Shown here piece after piece: positions 17,148 to 23,629 of a DNA stretch of 24,251 nt; the first letter of the stretch is position 1, and each line of letters opens with the position of its first letter. The notes below the pieces were generated by a model that was given only the letters and a program-made list of their open reading frames with translations, had not been told where the DNA came from and did not search any database. The stretch is taken from positions 1-24,251 of the IMG/VR virus record IMGVR_UViG_3300032087_000478; one strand, 5' to 3'. The DNA is from a virus. Made by a program: the position numbers and the translations under genes.

Positions 17148-18356
17148 TTATGCTTCAATTAAGTTAGCAAAAGCAGTTCCATTCTGAACAGCATCTCCAT
17201 CAACTAAAGAAGTCAATATGTATCTTGGCTCTCCAGTTCCAGCGTTAGTATAGATGTCATATATAACGTCTAAGCCACCGAACTGAGCAATGTGTACTTT
17301 AGAGAAATCTCCGAATAAAGCGTGGTCTTTAGTAGCGCCACCACCGTTACCAACATTACTAGAAACGAATGAGAAATATCCGTTGATAGTTTTGTCAGAG
17401 TTATCATATAATGGAGAAACACTAGCAACTTGAGCAGCAGACTTAGCAGCAGTGTAAGCATTAGTATCTACTAAATAAGCCATTCTAGCACCCTCTAATT
17501 GAACACCAGCATCTAAGATAGCAGACTCAAGTGCGATAGCAGTAGCAGCTGAAAATGCAGCAGTTGAACCAGCAGCAGCATCAGCAAATATAGAAGTAGG
17601 AGCGTTAGATACATCACTTGTACCTAATAAAGCTTGTTCTAAAGTAGCAGCAACAGATTGAGCCATATTTCTTCTCAATGCAGCCTCGATAGAAGCGTTT
17701 TGAGCGATAGCCTCAGCAGAAACATTAACAATAGAGATAAGTTTCTTTGGAGATAATGTTACGCTAGAAGCAGTACCATTAGCAGCAGGAGCAGAACCAC
17801 CAGTCTCAGCAACGAAGCCAGAGTTGATAGCACTAAATACTGGAAACTTCATATTGTCTACTCCAGCATAGAAATTAGCACCAGCAGAAGCTAAAACTAA
17901 GTTTGCTTCTAATTGGTCAGTCCAAGCCATAACTTCAGTAGCGTTACCAGCAGCAGTAGCAACAGCAGCACGAGTTAGGATTGAAGATGGTATAGCAATA
18001 CCTTTGAATGATTGACCAGTATAACGAGCCTCGTTTCTTGCCTCTTGGTCCATCTCTTTTACAAGACCTTCTAAACGACCAGTAGCAGCTTGATTCATAG
18101 CATCTTGGAAAGAATAATCTCTCACTTCGCTAGGAGTGTTTTCTGTTACTTCTTTAACAGCTTTAGTAGCTTGAAGTTTCTCAAAAGATTCAGCTCTTAA
18201 AGCCATCTTGTTCAACTCCTCTACTTTTTCATTTAAAGAATCAAAGTTGCTTTGCTCATCAGAAGTTAAGTCACGACCCTCAGCAGATGCTACAAGTCCT
18301 TCCATTTTCTCGATAACCTCAGCTCTTTCTTCTTTATAAAGTTTTGATGTTTTCAT
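17148..18356 (-). CDS. Major capsid protein, HK97 fold
   Basis: A 402-aa protein. Residues about 1-105 form the helical, Glu/Lys-rich scaffold-like delta domain (SKLYKEERAEVIEKMEGLV and more), which the prohead protease probably removes; the mature shell begins somewhere after about residue 105. The Ala-rich rest follows HK97-family capsids: WTDQLEANLVLASAGANFY, LSPKKLISIVNVSAEAIAQ, then the region MAQSVAATLEQALLGTSDVS and a final part with GLDVIYDIYTNAG. A 16-base AT-rich gap separates it from the protease gene. The next feature downstream is a strong hairpin terminator. Confidence 0.92.
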   Translation of the reverse strand: MKTSKLYKEERAEVIEKMEGLVASAEGRDLTSDEQSNFDSLNEKVEELNKMALRAESFEKLQATKAVKEVTENTPSEVRDYSFQDAMNQAATGRLEGLVKEMDQEARNEARYTGQSFKGIAIPSSILTRAAVATAAGNATEVMAWTDQLEANLVLASAGANFYAGVDNMKFPVFSAINSGFVAETGGSAPAANGTASSVTLSPKKLISIVNVSAEAIAQNASIEAALRRNMAQSVAATLEQALLGTSDVSNAPTSIFADAAAGSTAAFSAATAIALESAILDAGVQLEGARMAYLVDTNAYTAAKSAAQVASVSPLYDNSDKTINGYFSFVSSNVGNGGGATKDHALFGDFSKVHIAQFGGLDVIYDIYTNAGTGEPRYILTSLVDGDAVQNGTAFANLIEA

Positions 18357-18372
18357 TTTTAGAAAATTAATA

Positions 18373-20064
18373 TTAATATTTATTTTTCAAGATTGTCAAG
18401 CGCATTTTATGGAGGCTGCGCTGTTTTAAATCTTGTTCATTTTTTTGTGCCTCTATTTTTTCAGCCTCAAAACTTTCTTGTAGTTTTTTAGCTTGTTCTT
18501 TTTCTTGCCATTCTTTCATAGAACGTAAAGCAACAGAACTACTTGCAGCATTGTACGCTGGATAAGTTACTGAGCTAACATCATACAATTGAGATACTTT
18601 GTCAATAGTTCTTATATTCATTCCGTCTTTAATCTCCCAACTATCTTCTTCAACAGTAAATGCAAAGCTAGATTGACTAATAGTTCCGTTCTTTAATAAT
18701 TCCATTAAATCTCTAGCTGTTGATGTATTTGGCATATCAGCCTCATATCTCAATCCTTTCTCATCGACAGATAGTCTTAGCGTTCCGTTAGTCGTTCTTG
18801 CTAGTACTAAATTAGCATCGTGGTTAACTAAAAATCTAACGTCATCATCTAAACGACCTTCAAATGCTTTTGGAGATATATACTCTCTAAATCCACCTAA
18901 GTCATTAGACATAGAGTTAAACACAGCACCATAACCAACAACTGTTGGCTTATCTCCATCCATTCTAAGCTCTAAGTCTTGAACATCAAAAGTTCTAACC
19001 TCTTGATTTGGGTTTATTCTAATCTCAGTTTTTTCTTCCTCGTGTCCTGGATAGTGGTCTGCTTCATCCATCTCGTCATCTTGTTCGTCTATCATTTCAA
19101 CGTCATCGACATTTTTACCATAGTAAATAATTATTGAGTCATCAGTTTCCTCAATCTTTTGAATGTGTCTTAAATCGTGCTTTTTCATAAATCTATTATT
19201 TTCTTCCATTTCTTTTTTTACTGGATGATTATCTGGCAATAAATCTGTGTCGTGCTTACCACCTTGAAATCTACCTTTTTTAAGAGCAAATAAAAACGAG
19301 TTAACTCTTGCCATTGCCCATTGTTCTGGACTTGAAACGTTTGGTCTAACAGAGCCAGGATTGGTATTGTAAGCTCCTACGCCTCTATCAAAAACTTTTT
19401 CAAGTTCAGCGTAAGTAGTGCGACCATTCCAAGCTAAATCAAGCTCTTTTACTTCTTCGTTATGTTTTTCAACTTTATTTTCTAAAGCCTTTTTTACTTT
19501 ATCACTAACTTGGTTTTCTTCTTTCTTGCCCTCTAGCTTTTTAGTTAGTTCTAAAATTACGTCTTTCATTCCTTGCTCTCCAAGTGTTCCAATCGTACCC
19601 CATTTAATTTGAGCAACTACACCACCAACATTTGAAAGGTTTGGTTCTGTATCTCCTTTGAATTGTTTGCCATCTTCAAAGTGTCTTTTTATCCAAGCCT
19701 CTCTCTCTTTTATCCATTCTCTGATAGACTCAGTATCTTGACCATCTCTAGCTCTTTCCCATAACATAAAAGCCTCATTTCCTCTTATGTTGCCTCCAGC
19801 TTTCCATATCTCTGGAGTCTGTTCTTTAATAGTTTTAGCAAAGTCAAAATCAAATTGTGGTTCTTCACTATTTCTTAAACTTATCTTTTTATCGTCTCCT
19901 TTGTTAGGAAAGTTAGTTTGTCTTTCCTCATCATCTTCTAGTTGAGCATAACATACTGCTAGACGTTGGTCGTTGTCGTCATACTCTTTCATAAACTCGT
20001 CAGCCATACATCTCTCGATGAACTCCTCGTTAGTTTCGTCTATATTTTTAGTAGGTATAGGCAT
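18373..20064 (-). CDS. Prohead protease with long N-terminal extension, 563 aa
   Basis: Residues about 355-515 are an HK97-type prohead protease (peptidase U35/S78): VVGYGAVFNSMSNDLGGF, FLVNHD with the catalytic His415, and ISQSSFAF with Ser466. It would mature the capsid. The first 350 residues are unusual, since these proteases are mostly near 200 aa. They begin with a Cys-containing motif (EEFIERCMADEFMKE, then QRLAVCYAQ; Cys19 and Cys38) seen in several phage capsid-module proteins. A helical domain (IREWIKEREAWIKRHF, then VVAQIKWGTIG) and a further domain (RGVGAYNTN, EQWAMARVNSFLFAL, GGKHDTDL) follow, then an acidic linker at about 318-346. A Lys/Gln-rich tail follows the protease. It shares one base with the portal gene. 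Confidence 0.85.
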   Translation of the reverse strand: MPIPTKNIDETNEEFIERCMADEFMKEYDDNDQRLAVCYAQLEDDEERQTNFPNKGDDKKISLRNSEEPQFDFDFAKTIKEQTPEIWKAGGNIRGNEAFMLWERARDGQDTESIREWIKEREAWIKRHFEDGKQFKGDTEPNLSNVGGVVAQIKWGTIGTLGEQGMKDVILELTKKLEGKKEENQVSDKVKKALENKVEKHNEEVKELDLAWNGRTTYAELEKVFDRGVGAYNTNPGSVRPNVSSPEQWAMARVNSFLFALKKGRFQGGKHDTDLLPDNHPVKKEMEENNRFMKKHDLRHIQKIEETDDSIIIYYGKNVDDVEMIDEQDDEMDEADHYPGHEEEKTEIRINPNQEVRTFDVQDLELRMDGDKPTVVGYGAVFNSMSNDLGGFREYISPKAFEGRLDDDVRFLVNHDANLVLARTTNGTLRLSVDEKGLRYEADMPNTSTARDLMELLKNGTISQSSFAFTVEEDSWEIKDGMNIRTIDKVSQLYDVSSVTYPAYNAASSSVALRSMKEWQEKEQAKKLQESFEAEKIEAQKNEQDLKQRSLHKMRLTILKNKY

Positions 20065-21254
20065 TATTCTTTATCCTCCTCCTCTATATCTCCAACTGGA
20101 GCAAAGTTTAATGGCATAAACAATTGGTCGCCTTCTGGACCTACTCTATTCAAGTCCTCCATTCGTCTAATCTCATTAATAGACAAAGCACCAATAGAAG
20201 CCATCTCTCTATAATAACTAGCACGACTTGAACTATCTCCTCTAAGTAAAGCCTTAGCATCTAGCTTTACAGTAAACAAACCAAACTCTCTATCTCTAAA
20301 CAATTTTCTGTTTAGCTCTTGCTCTATCATTACCATATAAGGCATTAGCGTAAATCTTACGAAGTCAATACTCAAAGCCTCAATAGATGAGTAATTAGCA
20401 GCTTTCTCTAAGTGACCAATCAACGACAATGGTACTTTAAATATTCTTGCTACTTCCTCTATCTGAAATCTACGAGTTTCTAAAAGCTGATACTTATTAG
20501 CATCAATGTTAGTTTGCTCGAATGTCATACCCTCCTCTAAGATAGCAGTCTTACCAGATACAAATGAGCCAGAGTAATTCTGATTCCAAGAGTTCTTTAA
20601 TCTTGCAACTGCTTCTTTACTTAGTTTGCCTGGATGTTTAATAACTCCACCAACTTGAGCAGAGTTTCCTAGATAACTGTTGGCAGTATCATTAGCTGCT
20701 ATGGAAGTTGCTATTGTTGTGTTTTGTGCTTTCAATACGCTAACACCCTCACAACCATTAAAGGATAAGTTGAAGAAGTGTAGCATATCTTCTTTCATTA
20801 CTCCAATCTCATAGTCTTTAATGTCGTAAAAAATTTGTCCTTCGTGCTTTATTACTTTGACATCTTCTGGATTGATAGGAATAAGTGAGATTGGTCTTGC
20901 GTTACCATCTCTCTCAATATAAAAATACGCATTCCCCTCTAGCAATAAGTTGGTCATCAGAGTATCTAGGAATGTGTAAGGTGTCATATACTCGTTAGGA
21001 TTACGAGCTAGTAGTCGGTAGATTGGATGGCTAACGTCAGTTATTTTGTCGTTATCCTCCTCGACTCTGTAAACTTTTATAGGTAGACTTGCGATTGATT
21101 CACTAATAACTCTAACACACGCAAAGACTGCGCTAAATGTTAAAGAAGTATCTCTATTTACTGCCGTTTTGTTAGCTGCACCATAGCCACCAAACACAGC
21201 TCTTAAAAAATTATCTCCACGCTTTTCTGAACGTAGGAAGTCAAATAGTCCCAT
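20064..21254 (-). CDS. Portal protein, HK97 family
   Basis: A 396-aa protein of the HK97-type portal family. SAVFACVRVISESIASLPIK is the typical early helix and strand, followed by HPIYRLLARNPNEYMTPYTF, LLLEGNAYFYIERDG and the wing region, then LGNSAQVGGVIKHPGKLSKE and the channel region NIDANKYQLLETRRFQIEEV with IFKVPLSLIGHLEKA. Twelve copies would form the ring through which DNA enters and leaves. Length is normal. The 42-base gap upstream carries a promoter candidate; its end shares one base with the protease gene. Confidence 0.92.
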   Translation of the reverse strand: MGLFDFLRSEKRGDNFLRAVFGGYGAANKTAVNRDTSLTFSAVFACVRVISESIASLPIKVYRVEEDNDKITDVSHPIYRLLARNPNEYMTPYTFLDTLMTNLLLEGNAYFYIERDGNARPISLIPINPEDVKVIKHEGQIFYDIKDYEIGVMKEDMLHFFNLSFNGCEGVSVLKAQNTTIATSIAANDTANSYLGNSAQVGGVIKHPGKLSKEAVARLKNSWNQNYSGSFVSGKTAILEEGMTFEQTNIDANKYQLLETRRFQIEEVARIFKVPLSLIGHLEKAANYSSIEALSIDFVRFTLMPYMVMIEQELNRKLFRDREFGLFTVKLDAKALLRGDSSSRASYYREMASIGALSINEIRRMEDLNRVGPEGDQLFMPLNFAPVGDIEEEDKE

Positions 21255-21272: not shown

Positions 21273-21301
21273 CAAAGATAAGAGAAATCGCAAAAGTCAA
21301 A
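21273..21301 (-). promoter_or_regulatory. Bacteroidota-type promoter before the portal gene
   Basis: On the minus strand TTTG (21301-21298) and, 17 bases later, TATCTTTG (21280-21273) match TTTG...TAnnTTTG; the -7 box is a perfect match and the spacer is inside the 17-23 range reported for flavobacteria. It falls in the only clear gap of the head block and would start transcripts about 14 bases before the portal ATG. The -33 part overlaps the last codons of the terminase gene. Confidence 0.6.
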
Positions 21302-22865
21302 TCCACATTATTCCTCTATCGTCATAGGTAGATGAGTCGCTAGAATCGTCATTCATATAACATCCTAAAGCCATAACAAGCGCAACCATTCCATCAATCT
21401 TCTCAGTTGATTTACTCTTATCCATTTTAATATTACCAGCTGGGTCTGTTTTCATAGCTAAGTTAGAACACATCCACCTCAATACTTTGTTACCAGCGTG
21501 GTTAATCTGTTTGCCTAGTACTAGCTTCTCAAGTTCTTTAGTTGGTGCTGACATACTAGCAAAGCCTTGCCCATAGCTCTCCATTGGCAATCCATCTTCT
21601 GTTAAGTCAATCACTAGTTGGCTAGAGTTCCATCTATCGTAGGCTATTGACTTTATATTTACAACCTCAGCCACTTCTTTAATTCTACGTTTTATATAGT
21701 TGTAATCGGTGACATCGCCATCTGTGAGTTCGAGTAGATTCTCCTTGGACCAACCTATATAATCAACTTGGTCACGTCTTGAACGAATAAAAGCATTATC
21801 TTTTGGAGCAAAGAAATAAGGAATAATTGTAAATCTATCATCTTCTGGAATGATTAAAACAAAAGCTGAAACATCTCGAACACTAGCTAAGTCCAGTCCA
21901 GCGTAAGCTGTCATCCCTTTGTAATCCTCTAAGTGTATTGGTGCTTTGTTACACTCCATCCATTGCTGGTCACTAAGCCACTTACTAGCTGATGACATCC
22001 ATTGGTTTAGATGTAACATTCTAAATGTATTCTCATAGCTAGGTAGCTTGATAGCTTTCTCTTGTTCTCTTTTGAGATAGTCTAACTTAACTACTCCACT
22101 TTCAAGTCCAGGATTAGCAATCTTCAAAGCCTCCTCACTTGTCCAATCTGTTTCTAAATCACAAGCATACTTGACATAGTAAAAACTAGAGTCTTTGATT
22201 ATGCCCTCTGATACTTTACGACCATACTCCTCAGTCTTGTAGCATATCGACTCTCTGTTATATCCAGCAGTAGTAATGGCTATTGTCATTGGCTGTCTCC
22301 TACTACCAACTGAAGTAGTCAAGGCATCCCAAAGACTAGAGTCTTTCTGAACGAAAAACTCATCCATACAAATGAAACTAGCGTTGTATCCAAACTTAGA
22401 ACTTGCCTCAGAACTAATAGCCTTAAATGCTGAATTGCTTTTCTCGTGGATGATAGAGTTCTTAAATACCTTCAGATTCTTGTTTAGTTGATTGTCAGCT
22501 CTTACCATTCCACTAGCTACGTCAAATATAATACCAGCTTGTTGTCTATCTCCAGCAGCAATATAACATTCGGCACTAGGCTCGTTATCGGCTAGTAACA
22601 TATACAAAGCAATAGCACTTATCAAAGTTGACTTACCGTTTTTTCTTGGTAGACAAATGTAAGCAGTTCTAAATCTTCTTAGACCACTATCTCTATACTT
22701 CCAACCGAATAAATCTCTAACTATTGTATTTTGGAATGGCTCTAATTTAAATGGCTGACCCCCCAACTCTCCTTTGATATGCTTGATGTGATTCTCTATA
22801 AAGTAAACAACTCTATCTGCTGCCTTGTCATCAAAGAAAAAAGTCTTGTCCTCTTTAAGTTTCAT
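21297..22865 (-). CDS. terL: Terminase large subunit
   Basis: A 522-aa packaging motor and nuclease. Walker A is PRKNGKST (residues 73-80), Walker B FICMDE (164-169), and the coupling motif follows in ITTAG (197-201). The nuclease domain shows three acidic positions suitable for two metals: D325 in YAGLDLASVRD, D410 in IAYDRW and D491 in EKIDGMVALVMAL. It cuts concatemers and drives DNA into the prohead through the portal. Its ATG overlaps the stop of the embedded methyltransferase gene (ATGA). Family: TerL of the terminase_1 type. Confidence 0.93.
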   Translation of the reverse strand: MKLKEDKTFFFDDKAADRVVYFIENHIKHIKGELGGQPFKLEPFQNTIVRDLFGWKYRDSGLRRFRTAYICLPRKNGKSTLISAIALYMLLADNEPSAECYIAAGDRQQAGIIFDVASGMVRADNQLNKNLKVFKNSIIHEKSNSAFKAISSEASSKFGYNASFICMDEFFVQKDSSLWDALTTSVGSRRQPMTIAITTAGYNRESICYKTEEYGRKVSEGIIKDSSFYYVKYACDLETDWTSEEALKIANPGLESGVVKLDYLKREQEKAIKLPSYENTFRMLHLNQWMSSASKWLSDQQWMECNKAPIHLEDYKGMTAYAGLDLASVRDVSAFVLIIPEDDRFTIIPYFFAPKDNAFIRSRRDQVDYIGWSKENLLELTDGDVTDYNYIKRRIKEVAEVVNIKSIAYDRWNSSQLVIDLTEDGLPMESYGQGFASMSAPTKELEKLVLGKQINHAGNKVLRWMCSNLAMKTDPAGNIKMDKSKSTEKIDGMVALVMALGCYMNDDSSDSSTYDDRGIMWI

Positions 22866-23629
22866 ATAAGCCTTAGTTGAGATTGGTGTTCTTTAATTCT
22901 TTTACTTGCAATCTCAAAATAGTTTTTATCTTTTTCTATCCCTATAAAATTTCTATTCAAATTTTTACAAGCTACTCCAGTTGTTCCACTACCCATAGTA
23001 AAATCTAATACTGTTTCGTTTTCTTTGGTGTATGTTTTAATAAGATACTCTATTAATAAAACTGGTTTTTGTGTTGGGTGTTTTTTACTTCCTTTGGGAG
23101 TGTTAGGTACACTTTTAAATTTTAATACTGTTTTAGGATTTACTTTTGTATTATCATAATAGGTAGCTTCTTTTTTTCCTATATTTATGTGATTCGATTT
23201 ATTTGGACTTCCTTGTATTTTATATTTAGCTCTCAATAAGCTGGTTTTGTTTCTTTCAGCTAATTGTTTGTTAAAAGTTGGTTTGCTTTTATTTACAAAT
23301 ACGCTTATTATTTCGTGATACTTCATAGGCATATATGAATTTTGAGCCATTCCAGTAGGCATTGATTTTTCCCATATCCAGTCATATTTAAAGTTATTAA
23401 TATTGCTCATTCTTAAAGCACTACTAAACGGCTCACTACCAAATAAAACTATTGCGCCATTAGGTTTTATTATTCTGTTTAATTGTTCCCACATTGCTTC
23501 AAAAGGAATTACATTATCCCATTTACAAGCTGTTGTTCCGTATGGTGGGTCTGTAATTATAGCATCAATACTATTATCTCTAATAGATTTCATTACCTCT
23601 AAACAATCTCCGTTATATAAGTCAATCAT
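22862..23629 (-). CDS. DNA methyltransferase, DPPY type, embedded in the terminase operon
   Basis: A 255-aa beta-class enzyme: catalytic motif IV TDPPYGTT at residues 26-33 and AdoMet motif I, DFTMGSGTTG, at about 209-218, followed by NRNFIGIEKD. DPPY points to N6-adenine methylation. HPTQKPVLLIEYLI (184-197) is the conserved helix before motif I in this group. It lies between the two terminase genes and overlaps both (TAATG with the small subunit, ATGA with the large subunit), so all three are made together late in infection. No restriction enzyme is near. It may protect DNA just before packaging or mark a site near the packaging start; both are inference. Confidence 0.9.
   Translation of the reverse strand: MIDLYNGDCLEVMKSIRDNSIDAIITDPPYGTTACKWDNVIPFEAMWEQLNRIIKPNGAIVLFGSEPFSSALRMSNINNFKYDWIWEKSMPTGMAQNSYMPMKYHEIISVFVNKSKPTFNKQLAERNKTSLLRAKYKIQGSPNKSNHINIGKKEATYYDNTKVNPKTVLKFKSVPNTPKGSKKHPTQKPVLLIEYLIKTYTKENETVLDFTMGSGTTGVACKNLNRNFIGIEKDKNYFEIASKRIKEHQSQLRLI

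Follow-up and report, generated by a model that had tools for sequence, protein, structure and literature searches.

Exchangeable N-terminal modules on a phage prohead protease recur on portals and other head proteases

Introduction

Why would a phage prohead protease carry some 350 additional residues ahead of its protease domain? The question is raised by an open reading frame (ORF) in the viral record IMGVR_UViG_3300032087_000478 of IMG/VR, of which positions 1 to 24,251 (hereafter the window, 24,251 nucleotides in full) were analyzed. An initial annotation, made from the sequence letters without database searches, considered the extension to be either a built-in scaffold or a packaged enzyme released by self-cleavage. 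Here, we ask whether the extended gene is real, where else its parts occur, and which role fits their distribution.

Domain layout of the extended prohead protease

The layout drawn in the initial annotation was borne out in all its parts (Table 1). The protease domain, placed there at about residues 355 to 515, was located within a few residues of that position by Pfam (PF04586, Peptidase_S78, residues 364 to 520, E 1.8e-46, 158.7 bits versus a cutoff of 21) and by NCBIfam (TIGR01543, residues 374 to 510, 103.2 bits versus a cutoff of 59), and the ORF matched PHROG 80, head maturation protease. In an S78 alignment of 310 rows, every row without a gap at the site had H415 (306 of 306) and S466 (305 of 305); we take these two to be the catalytic residues of S78, and since both are kept in every non-gap row, the window protease looks active as judged by its residues. 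The proposed two-Cys motif consists of the only two cysteines of the 563-aa ORF, each kept in 29 of 31 nonredundant module A rows. The Trp-rich helical domain corresponds to module B, which holds five of the nine tryptophans of the ORF (residues 87, 102, 117, 124, and 155) and is helical in the predicted model, and the third domain, recognized earlier by its GGKHDTDL end, is DUF5824 (PF19141, residues 194 to 265, 29.6 bits, above the gathering cutoff of 25). S78 and DUF5824 were the only Pfam families on the protein, and a missing match would not exclude an effector or conflict domain. The linker is indeed acidic (residues 293 to 354, net charge -13), and this region is the insertion place of two further modules in relatives, D (DUF3721-like) and K (P-loop kinase-like). 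In the window protein, modules B and C are close to neutral (net charges of 0 and -1), which offers no clue from sequence charge that they bind DNA.

Table 1. Features of the head gene region in the window
Feature	Coordinates	Strand	Description
HK97-type major capsid protein (MCP)	17148..18356	-	Phage_capsid match at residues 150-392
Whole ORF, N-terminally extended prohead protease	18373..20064	-	563 aa, ATG start
C-terminal tail, residues 531-563	18376..18474	-	Fast evolving
S78 prohead protease domain, residues 355-530	18475..19002	-	Family matches; H415 and S466 conserved
Residues 293-354	19003..19188	-	Conserved short stretch RHIQKIEETDDSIIIYY, then acidic linker
Module C, residues 182-292	19189..19521	-	DUF5824 (PF19141), helical, GGKHDTDLLP end
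Module B, residues 48-181	19522..19923	-	Trp-rich helical domain, without Pfam family
Module A, residues 1-46	19927..20064	-	Helical hairpin with Cys19 and Cys38
Portal protein (PF04860)	20064..21254	-	Pfam; overlaps protease start
Terminase large subunit	21297..22865	-	Pfam

The protease gene is located between the portal and MCP genes. The roughly 150 N-terminal MCP residues that precede the Phage_capsid match are, we infer, a delta-domain-like scaffold region. Elsewhere in the window, a DNA methyltransferase gene (22862-23629) lies between the genes read as the terminase small and large subunits; in L008 and similar loci, the terminase genes abut without a methyltransferase, and in others the gene at this place differs in length. 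A second DNA methyltransferase, of N6/N4 type, is encoded at the opposite window end (254-1015), and a small HNH-like protein was called by eye at 1286-1627.

The extended gene is not an assembly artefact

Full-length relatives with 88 to 93% identity recurred on many independent IMG/VR contigs; the contigs are metagenomic, and one locus (L001) is 100% identical to the window and may not be independent of it. With the window ORF as the reference and 34 orthologues (28 to 33 usable per segment), median dN/dS was 0.099 for module A, 0.032 for B, 0.093 for C, 0.068 for the protease, and 0.393 for the C-terminal tail; modules A, B, and C are under purifying selection. The near-complete relatives on many contigs, together with the low dN/dS of A to C, confirm that the extended prohead protease is real and that the fusion error feared in the initial annotation did not produce it. 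Parts of the extension are in fact missing in some close relatives, as an error might have led one to find, but the cause is module exchange.

Module exchange among close relatives

Comparison of domain order in related phages, suggested at the outset, revealed modules that were shuffled, inserted, or lost between close relatives. Across 59 close portals, 12 module arrangements were seen, with at least 23 changes on the portal tree (at least 13 for D alone); with 25 of its 55 inner branches open, this tree has low resolution, and the 23 changes are a rough minimum. In position, B can be replaced by a second helical module, B' (GRGGTEVGVARARD...WALWGGD). The arrangement is A-B-protease in L056 (MCP 98% and portal 95% identical to those of the window), B'-protease in L055 (MCP 96% identical), and A-B'-C-D-protease in L044 (MCP and portal 96% identical), with module D being similar to DUF3721. 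B'-protease was also encoded by L057 and seven similar loci (portal 92 to 94%, MCP 77 to 83%), and L063 and L065, with more distant portals (71 to 73%) and, for L065, a distant MCP (42%), had A and a B' remnant only. Module K is a rare P-loop kinase-like insert (5 matches) with a weak AAA_33 match (E 0.009). Such a kinase-like module lies inside the prohead protease extension of L047 (3781-6003, the locus with the weak AAA_33 match), L128 (1169-3220), and L170 (415-2385), at a position that varies by phage.

Carriers of the modules in other phages

Module HMMs and module names were made in this analysis. Viral contigs (viral_contigs) were scanned four times with B or C alone and once with B' alone, with no protease or portal sequence in the queries; the census also took in a whole-protein scan, one genome scan, and named phage records. 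Confirmed relatives numbered at least 556 to 582 per module scan, and the best 80 of each favor relatives of the first query row. Among the matches listed, there were 452 module-bearing ORFs, 394 of them nonredundant. Of the 394, 191 had S78, preceded by the modules in 175 and followed by them in 16; the other 203 were without it. Modules, prohead protease, and MCP formed a single ORF in 61 of the 394, all among the 175 with N-terminal modules (e.g., L074, L076, L077, L184, L193, and L210).

The 202 ORFs with neither S78 nor MCP were reduced to 54 cluster representatives, 52 of which were scanned with Pfam (two partial ones were omitted). Portal families were found in many of the 52 (Phage_portal in 16, Phage_portal_2 in 4, Portal_Mu in 1, and the P23-45 portal in 1), as were MuF (PF04233, in 8, partly the same proteins as the portals), XkdF protease (6), and ClpP-type protease (2); one PAP2, one DUF2213, and one CTP-transferase-like protein were also seen, and some representatives were without a recognized partner. 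The portal partners include HK97-, lambda-, and Mu-type portals, and the module-bearing viruses as a whole infect bacteria or archaea. The extension is not specific to the S78 protease: its modules also occur with portals, with portal-MuF proteins, and with head proteases of the XkdF and ClpP types.

Named phages encode several of these combinations. Archaeal viruses carry B', C, and D; in the haloviruses HRTV-28 and HRTV-4 the modules are on a portal-MuF protein, and in HGTV-1 they are on a prohead protease. In Roseobacter phage CRP-821, they are on a protein annotated as the major capsid protein, and in Vibrio phage 382E49-1 the module-bearing protein adjoins a minor head gene. Modules also stand alone inside the head gene cluster. 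The group that includes L109 encodes B-C as a protein of its own, two genes past the portal gene, and has a ClpP-like head protease; in L156, a relative of L109, the same slot is filled by C and a different module. Stand-alone copies occur in PaBG and SCTP-2 as well. Partners beyond the known prohead-interior proteins were the CTP-transferase-like protein in Melnitz-3, PAP2, the PaBG stand-alone copy, and an 80-aa protein in HTVC111P. In Pseudomonas phage PaBG (L203:2965-3297), B' alone makes up a protein of 110 aa that is annotated as a putative DNA-binding protein and adjoins topoisomerase genes.

Among genome contigs (genome_contigs), 1 of 85 pattern matches encodes B, as B with an S78-like head protein, in a scan that pattern seeding narrows; plasmids searched for the modules gave no match. 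B-C was present in 183 records of Salinibacter ruber M8 phages (within OR896163-OR896349). In the record read through, Salinibacter 15_1, a divergent S78-like protease region follows B-C in a protein annotated as hypothetical. A cupredoxin-like stretch (YYCVNHSGMGG, by eye) lies between or before modules in L184 (4635-5738), L178, L194, L196, L214, and L216; that of L214 matched baseplate wedge and virion proteins in PHROGs. In L202 (3986-4762), L212 (1323-2123), and L311 (3487-4377), B' is followed by a domain matching the C-terminal part of a DNA methyltransferase family in PHROGs, which in L212 also matches several head maturation proteases and is perhaps another mobile head module. A literature search covering few subscription journals found no paper on the modules, on DUF5824, or on DUF3721 with phage.

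Structure predictions and fold searches

Structure prediction and a fold search, both proposed in the initial annotation, gave helical domains and no PDB fold with E below 1. The AlphaFold2 model of A to C combined a high pLDDT (85.5) with a pTM of only 0.52, i.e., confident helical domains with low mutual order, as for separate domains A, B, and C. The helices of module A are predicted at residues 12 to 21, 23 to 27, and 31 to 48. A sequence search of solved structures gave no match up to E 1, and Foldseek of the A-C model against the PDB returned nothing below E 1.7.

The model of B' (pLDDT 96.9) has five helices, and its relatives in BFVD were in portal, prohead protease, XkdF, and Mu gp29 entries, with TM-scores over the query of 0.71 to 0.96 among the 50 rows listed. 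Alignment of B with B' by hhalign gave E values of 0.012 to 0.022, a score matched by 1 of 150 column-shuffled controls, and five main helices are present in each model; hhalign and models together are suggestive of one family. No useful hhalign signal was obtained for B versus C or for B' versus C.

Two other candidates were set aside. The helical region of the mimivirus R596 sulfhydryl oxidase (3td7) was the top VIA-align chain for both B (Z 7.2, 114 aligned, rmsd 3.8) and B' (Z 5.0, 79 aligned, rmsd 3.0), below the meaningful level for helical matches. The name ChaB was borne by one BFVD hit; no ORF had a ChaB-like motif when all were searched for it.

Proposed role and alternatives

The same domains on other head-interior proteins of distantly related phages suggest that the modules ride inside the head as passengers or serve as its inner fittings. 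Our preferred reading, toward which we lean by a narrow balance, is that the extension is a string of small, separately folded, exchangeable modules that reach the prohead interior through fusion to a resident protein, here the prohead protease. Modules would enter the prohead by being fused to a protein bound for its inside; in this marine phage, that carrier would be the protease, and what the partners have in common would be their place in the prohead interior, close to the portal. Once the shell has closed, the protease would cut the linkers while degrading itself, and the freed A-B-C might stay with the packaged genome, to act in the head or to leave with the DNA. Carriers are nearly always one per sequenced neighborhood. 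Conservation of the modules across bacterial and archaeal viruses suggests a target that all of these share, be it packaged DNA, the ejection path, or some universal host component. An inhibitor of a single host's defense protein is disfavored by how strongly B is conserved and by the presence of B', C, and D in archaeal viruses. Some observations count against the preferred reading: a dN/dS as low as that of B would be unusual in an arms-race effector, PDB Foldseek gave no fold with E below 1 for A to C, the proteins named above from Melnitz-3, PaBG, and HTVC111P and the PAP2 protein are not known to be prohead-interior proteins, and some representatives were without a recognized partner.

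The strong conservation of the modules would also fit a structural contact, and the serious rival is an assembly adaptor or portal-proximal core, whose modules would bring portal, MuF, and protease together or, as an internal core, nucleate the prohead and be destroyed at maturation. The modules are shared by portals, portal-MuF proteins, and proteases, all of which have to come together at the portal vertex, and in the accessible text of the relevant papers the head-internal DarA and Hdf of P1 also affect head size (PMC12810830) and internal protein III of T4 affects head assembly (PMC9026906). Yet modules are lost or replaced while MCPs stay 96 to 98% and portals 92 to 96% identical, and a docking pair might need modules on both partners, whereas a second ORF with B, B', or C was present at just 8 of 446 loci (about 12 kb or less each); we judge this adaptor unlikely, if well worth weighing. 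A built-in scaffold, shaping the capsid like the HK97 delta domains or lambda Nu3 and then being removed, would suit helical domains on a prohead-interior protein whose gene adjoins portal and MCP, but the MCP has its own N-terminal region before the capsid fold and hardly changes when the modules do, the extension is down to A and a B' remnant in L063 and L065 and to B' in L057 and its relatives, and the same domains sit on ClpP-, XkdF-, and S78-type proteases and on portals. On this sequence evidence the scaffold is disfavored and, in our estimate, very improbable. Of what the initial annotation had proposed, separable domains in a multidomain head maturation protein stand, with partners that mostly point to the prohead interior; the built-in scaffold finds no support, as the module set shifts while MCP, portal, and protease hardly do, and a packaged enzyme and its release by self-cleavage are conjectural.

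A catalytic effector injected into the host, in the manner of a polyvalent enzyme, might account for the numerous polar positions that are invariant in B (GGN, RExW..RH, AQ.KW) and C (RG.GAY, QWA.ARVN.FL, D.DLLP) and for the kinase-like module that relatives insert in the same region. That insertion is rare, however, and no enzyme family or catalytic fold was matched for A, B, or C by Pfam, the solved-structure sequence search, or PDB Foldseek; we regard such an effector as improbable. Finally, a hidden internal start, which the initial annotation had raised as a separate start for the protease alone, would leave the extension untranslated with the protease. In-frame ATGs are present at M286, M293, M324, M332, and M368, those at 293, 324, and 332 favoring this possibility, and an ATG lies between the last module and S78 in 169 of 175 related ORFs. 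None of the internal ATGs of the window has an SD-like sequence, whereas the annotated start has a strong one upstream (GAGGAGGAGG), a weak contrast given an SD-like motif at just 41 of 163 annotated starts in relatives. Codon-level purifying selection in all modules also opposes an internal start, to which we give hardly any credence.

Beyond the preferred reading of modules carried into the prohead by the protease, the set A, B, B', C, D, K, and others might be a general cargo or genome-handling layer that moves by fusion among the prohead-lining proteins of tailed bacterial and archaeal viruses (several portal types, MuF, and three kinds of head protease) and has one conserved activity, with B and B' as two branches of one five-helix domain; we put this forward tentatively, as possible rather than probable. 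If the preferred reading is true, the extension marks a widespread route by which proteins enter phage heads as fusions to the maturation protease, perhaps with a built-in means of release, and provides function-guiding context for DUF5824 and DUF3721-like domains. It would also raise the question of whether the same fragments end up in the virions of S78, ClpP, and XkdF phages that share these modules.

Comparison with known systems

With HK97 gp4-type prohead proteases, the window protein shares the protease domain, the catalytic His and Ser, and the gene order portal-protease-MCP; it differs in its approximately 350 extra N-terminal residues in three domains. HK97 gp4 is not known to carry such residues. 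The initial remark that this is not the textbook form is true against HK97, although the form is common, given the number of relatives per scan and the Salinibacter records.

The head-internal proteins of other phages offer a second comparison. The internal proteins and Alt of T4, DarA and Hdf of P1, and the ejection proteins of SPN3US are, in the available portions of the sources, internal to the head and cut by the prohead protease (PMC9026906, PMC12810830, PMC5694885), and those of T4 and P1 are ejected with the DNA (PMC9026906, PMC12810830). They are products of separate genes, many with targeting propeptides, as in SPN3US (PMC5694885), whereas here cargo-like modules are on the protease. 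The same portions report that the T4 protease drops from 72 copies to 3, with the internal proteins being retained (PMC9026906), and that P1 DarA is cut by the protease while darA affects head size (PMC12810830); the DarA case implies that cargo and assembly roles can coexist.

The closest known kind is that of polyvalent and MuF- or portal-fused head-packaged proteins. The accessible text of Iyer 2017 describes fusions of effector domains to MuF or portal, as well as assemblin-like (prohead-type) peptidases at the C terminus of polyvalent proteins, thought to be active in virion assembly (PMC5512222), and that of a polymorphic toxin survey of 2012 describes MuF-based delivery (PMC3482391). 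As presented in these sources, such proteins are multidomain, encoded in the portal-terminase head cluster, and predicted to be packaged (PMC5512222, PMC3482391). The window protein likewise has several domains in one polypeptide, is encoded with portal and terminase, and has its peptidase toward the C terminus (S78 at residues 364 to 520 of 563), the modules being C-terminal to S78 in only 16 of 191 relatives; MuF, in contrast, was not found in it by Pfam. Its modules are small, mostly helical, and outside the effector domains described in the accessible parts of those papers, and a single set is exchanged among portals and proteases of the S78, XkdF, and ClpP types. New here is the carrier, which is the head maturation protease itself.
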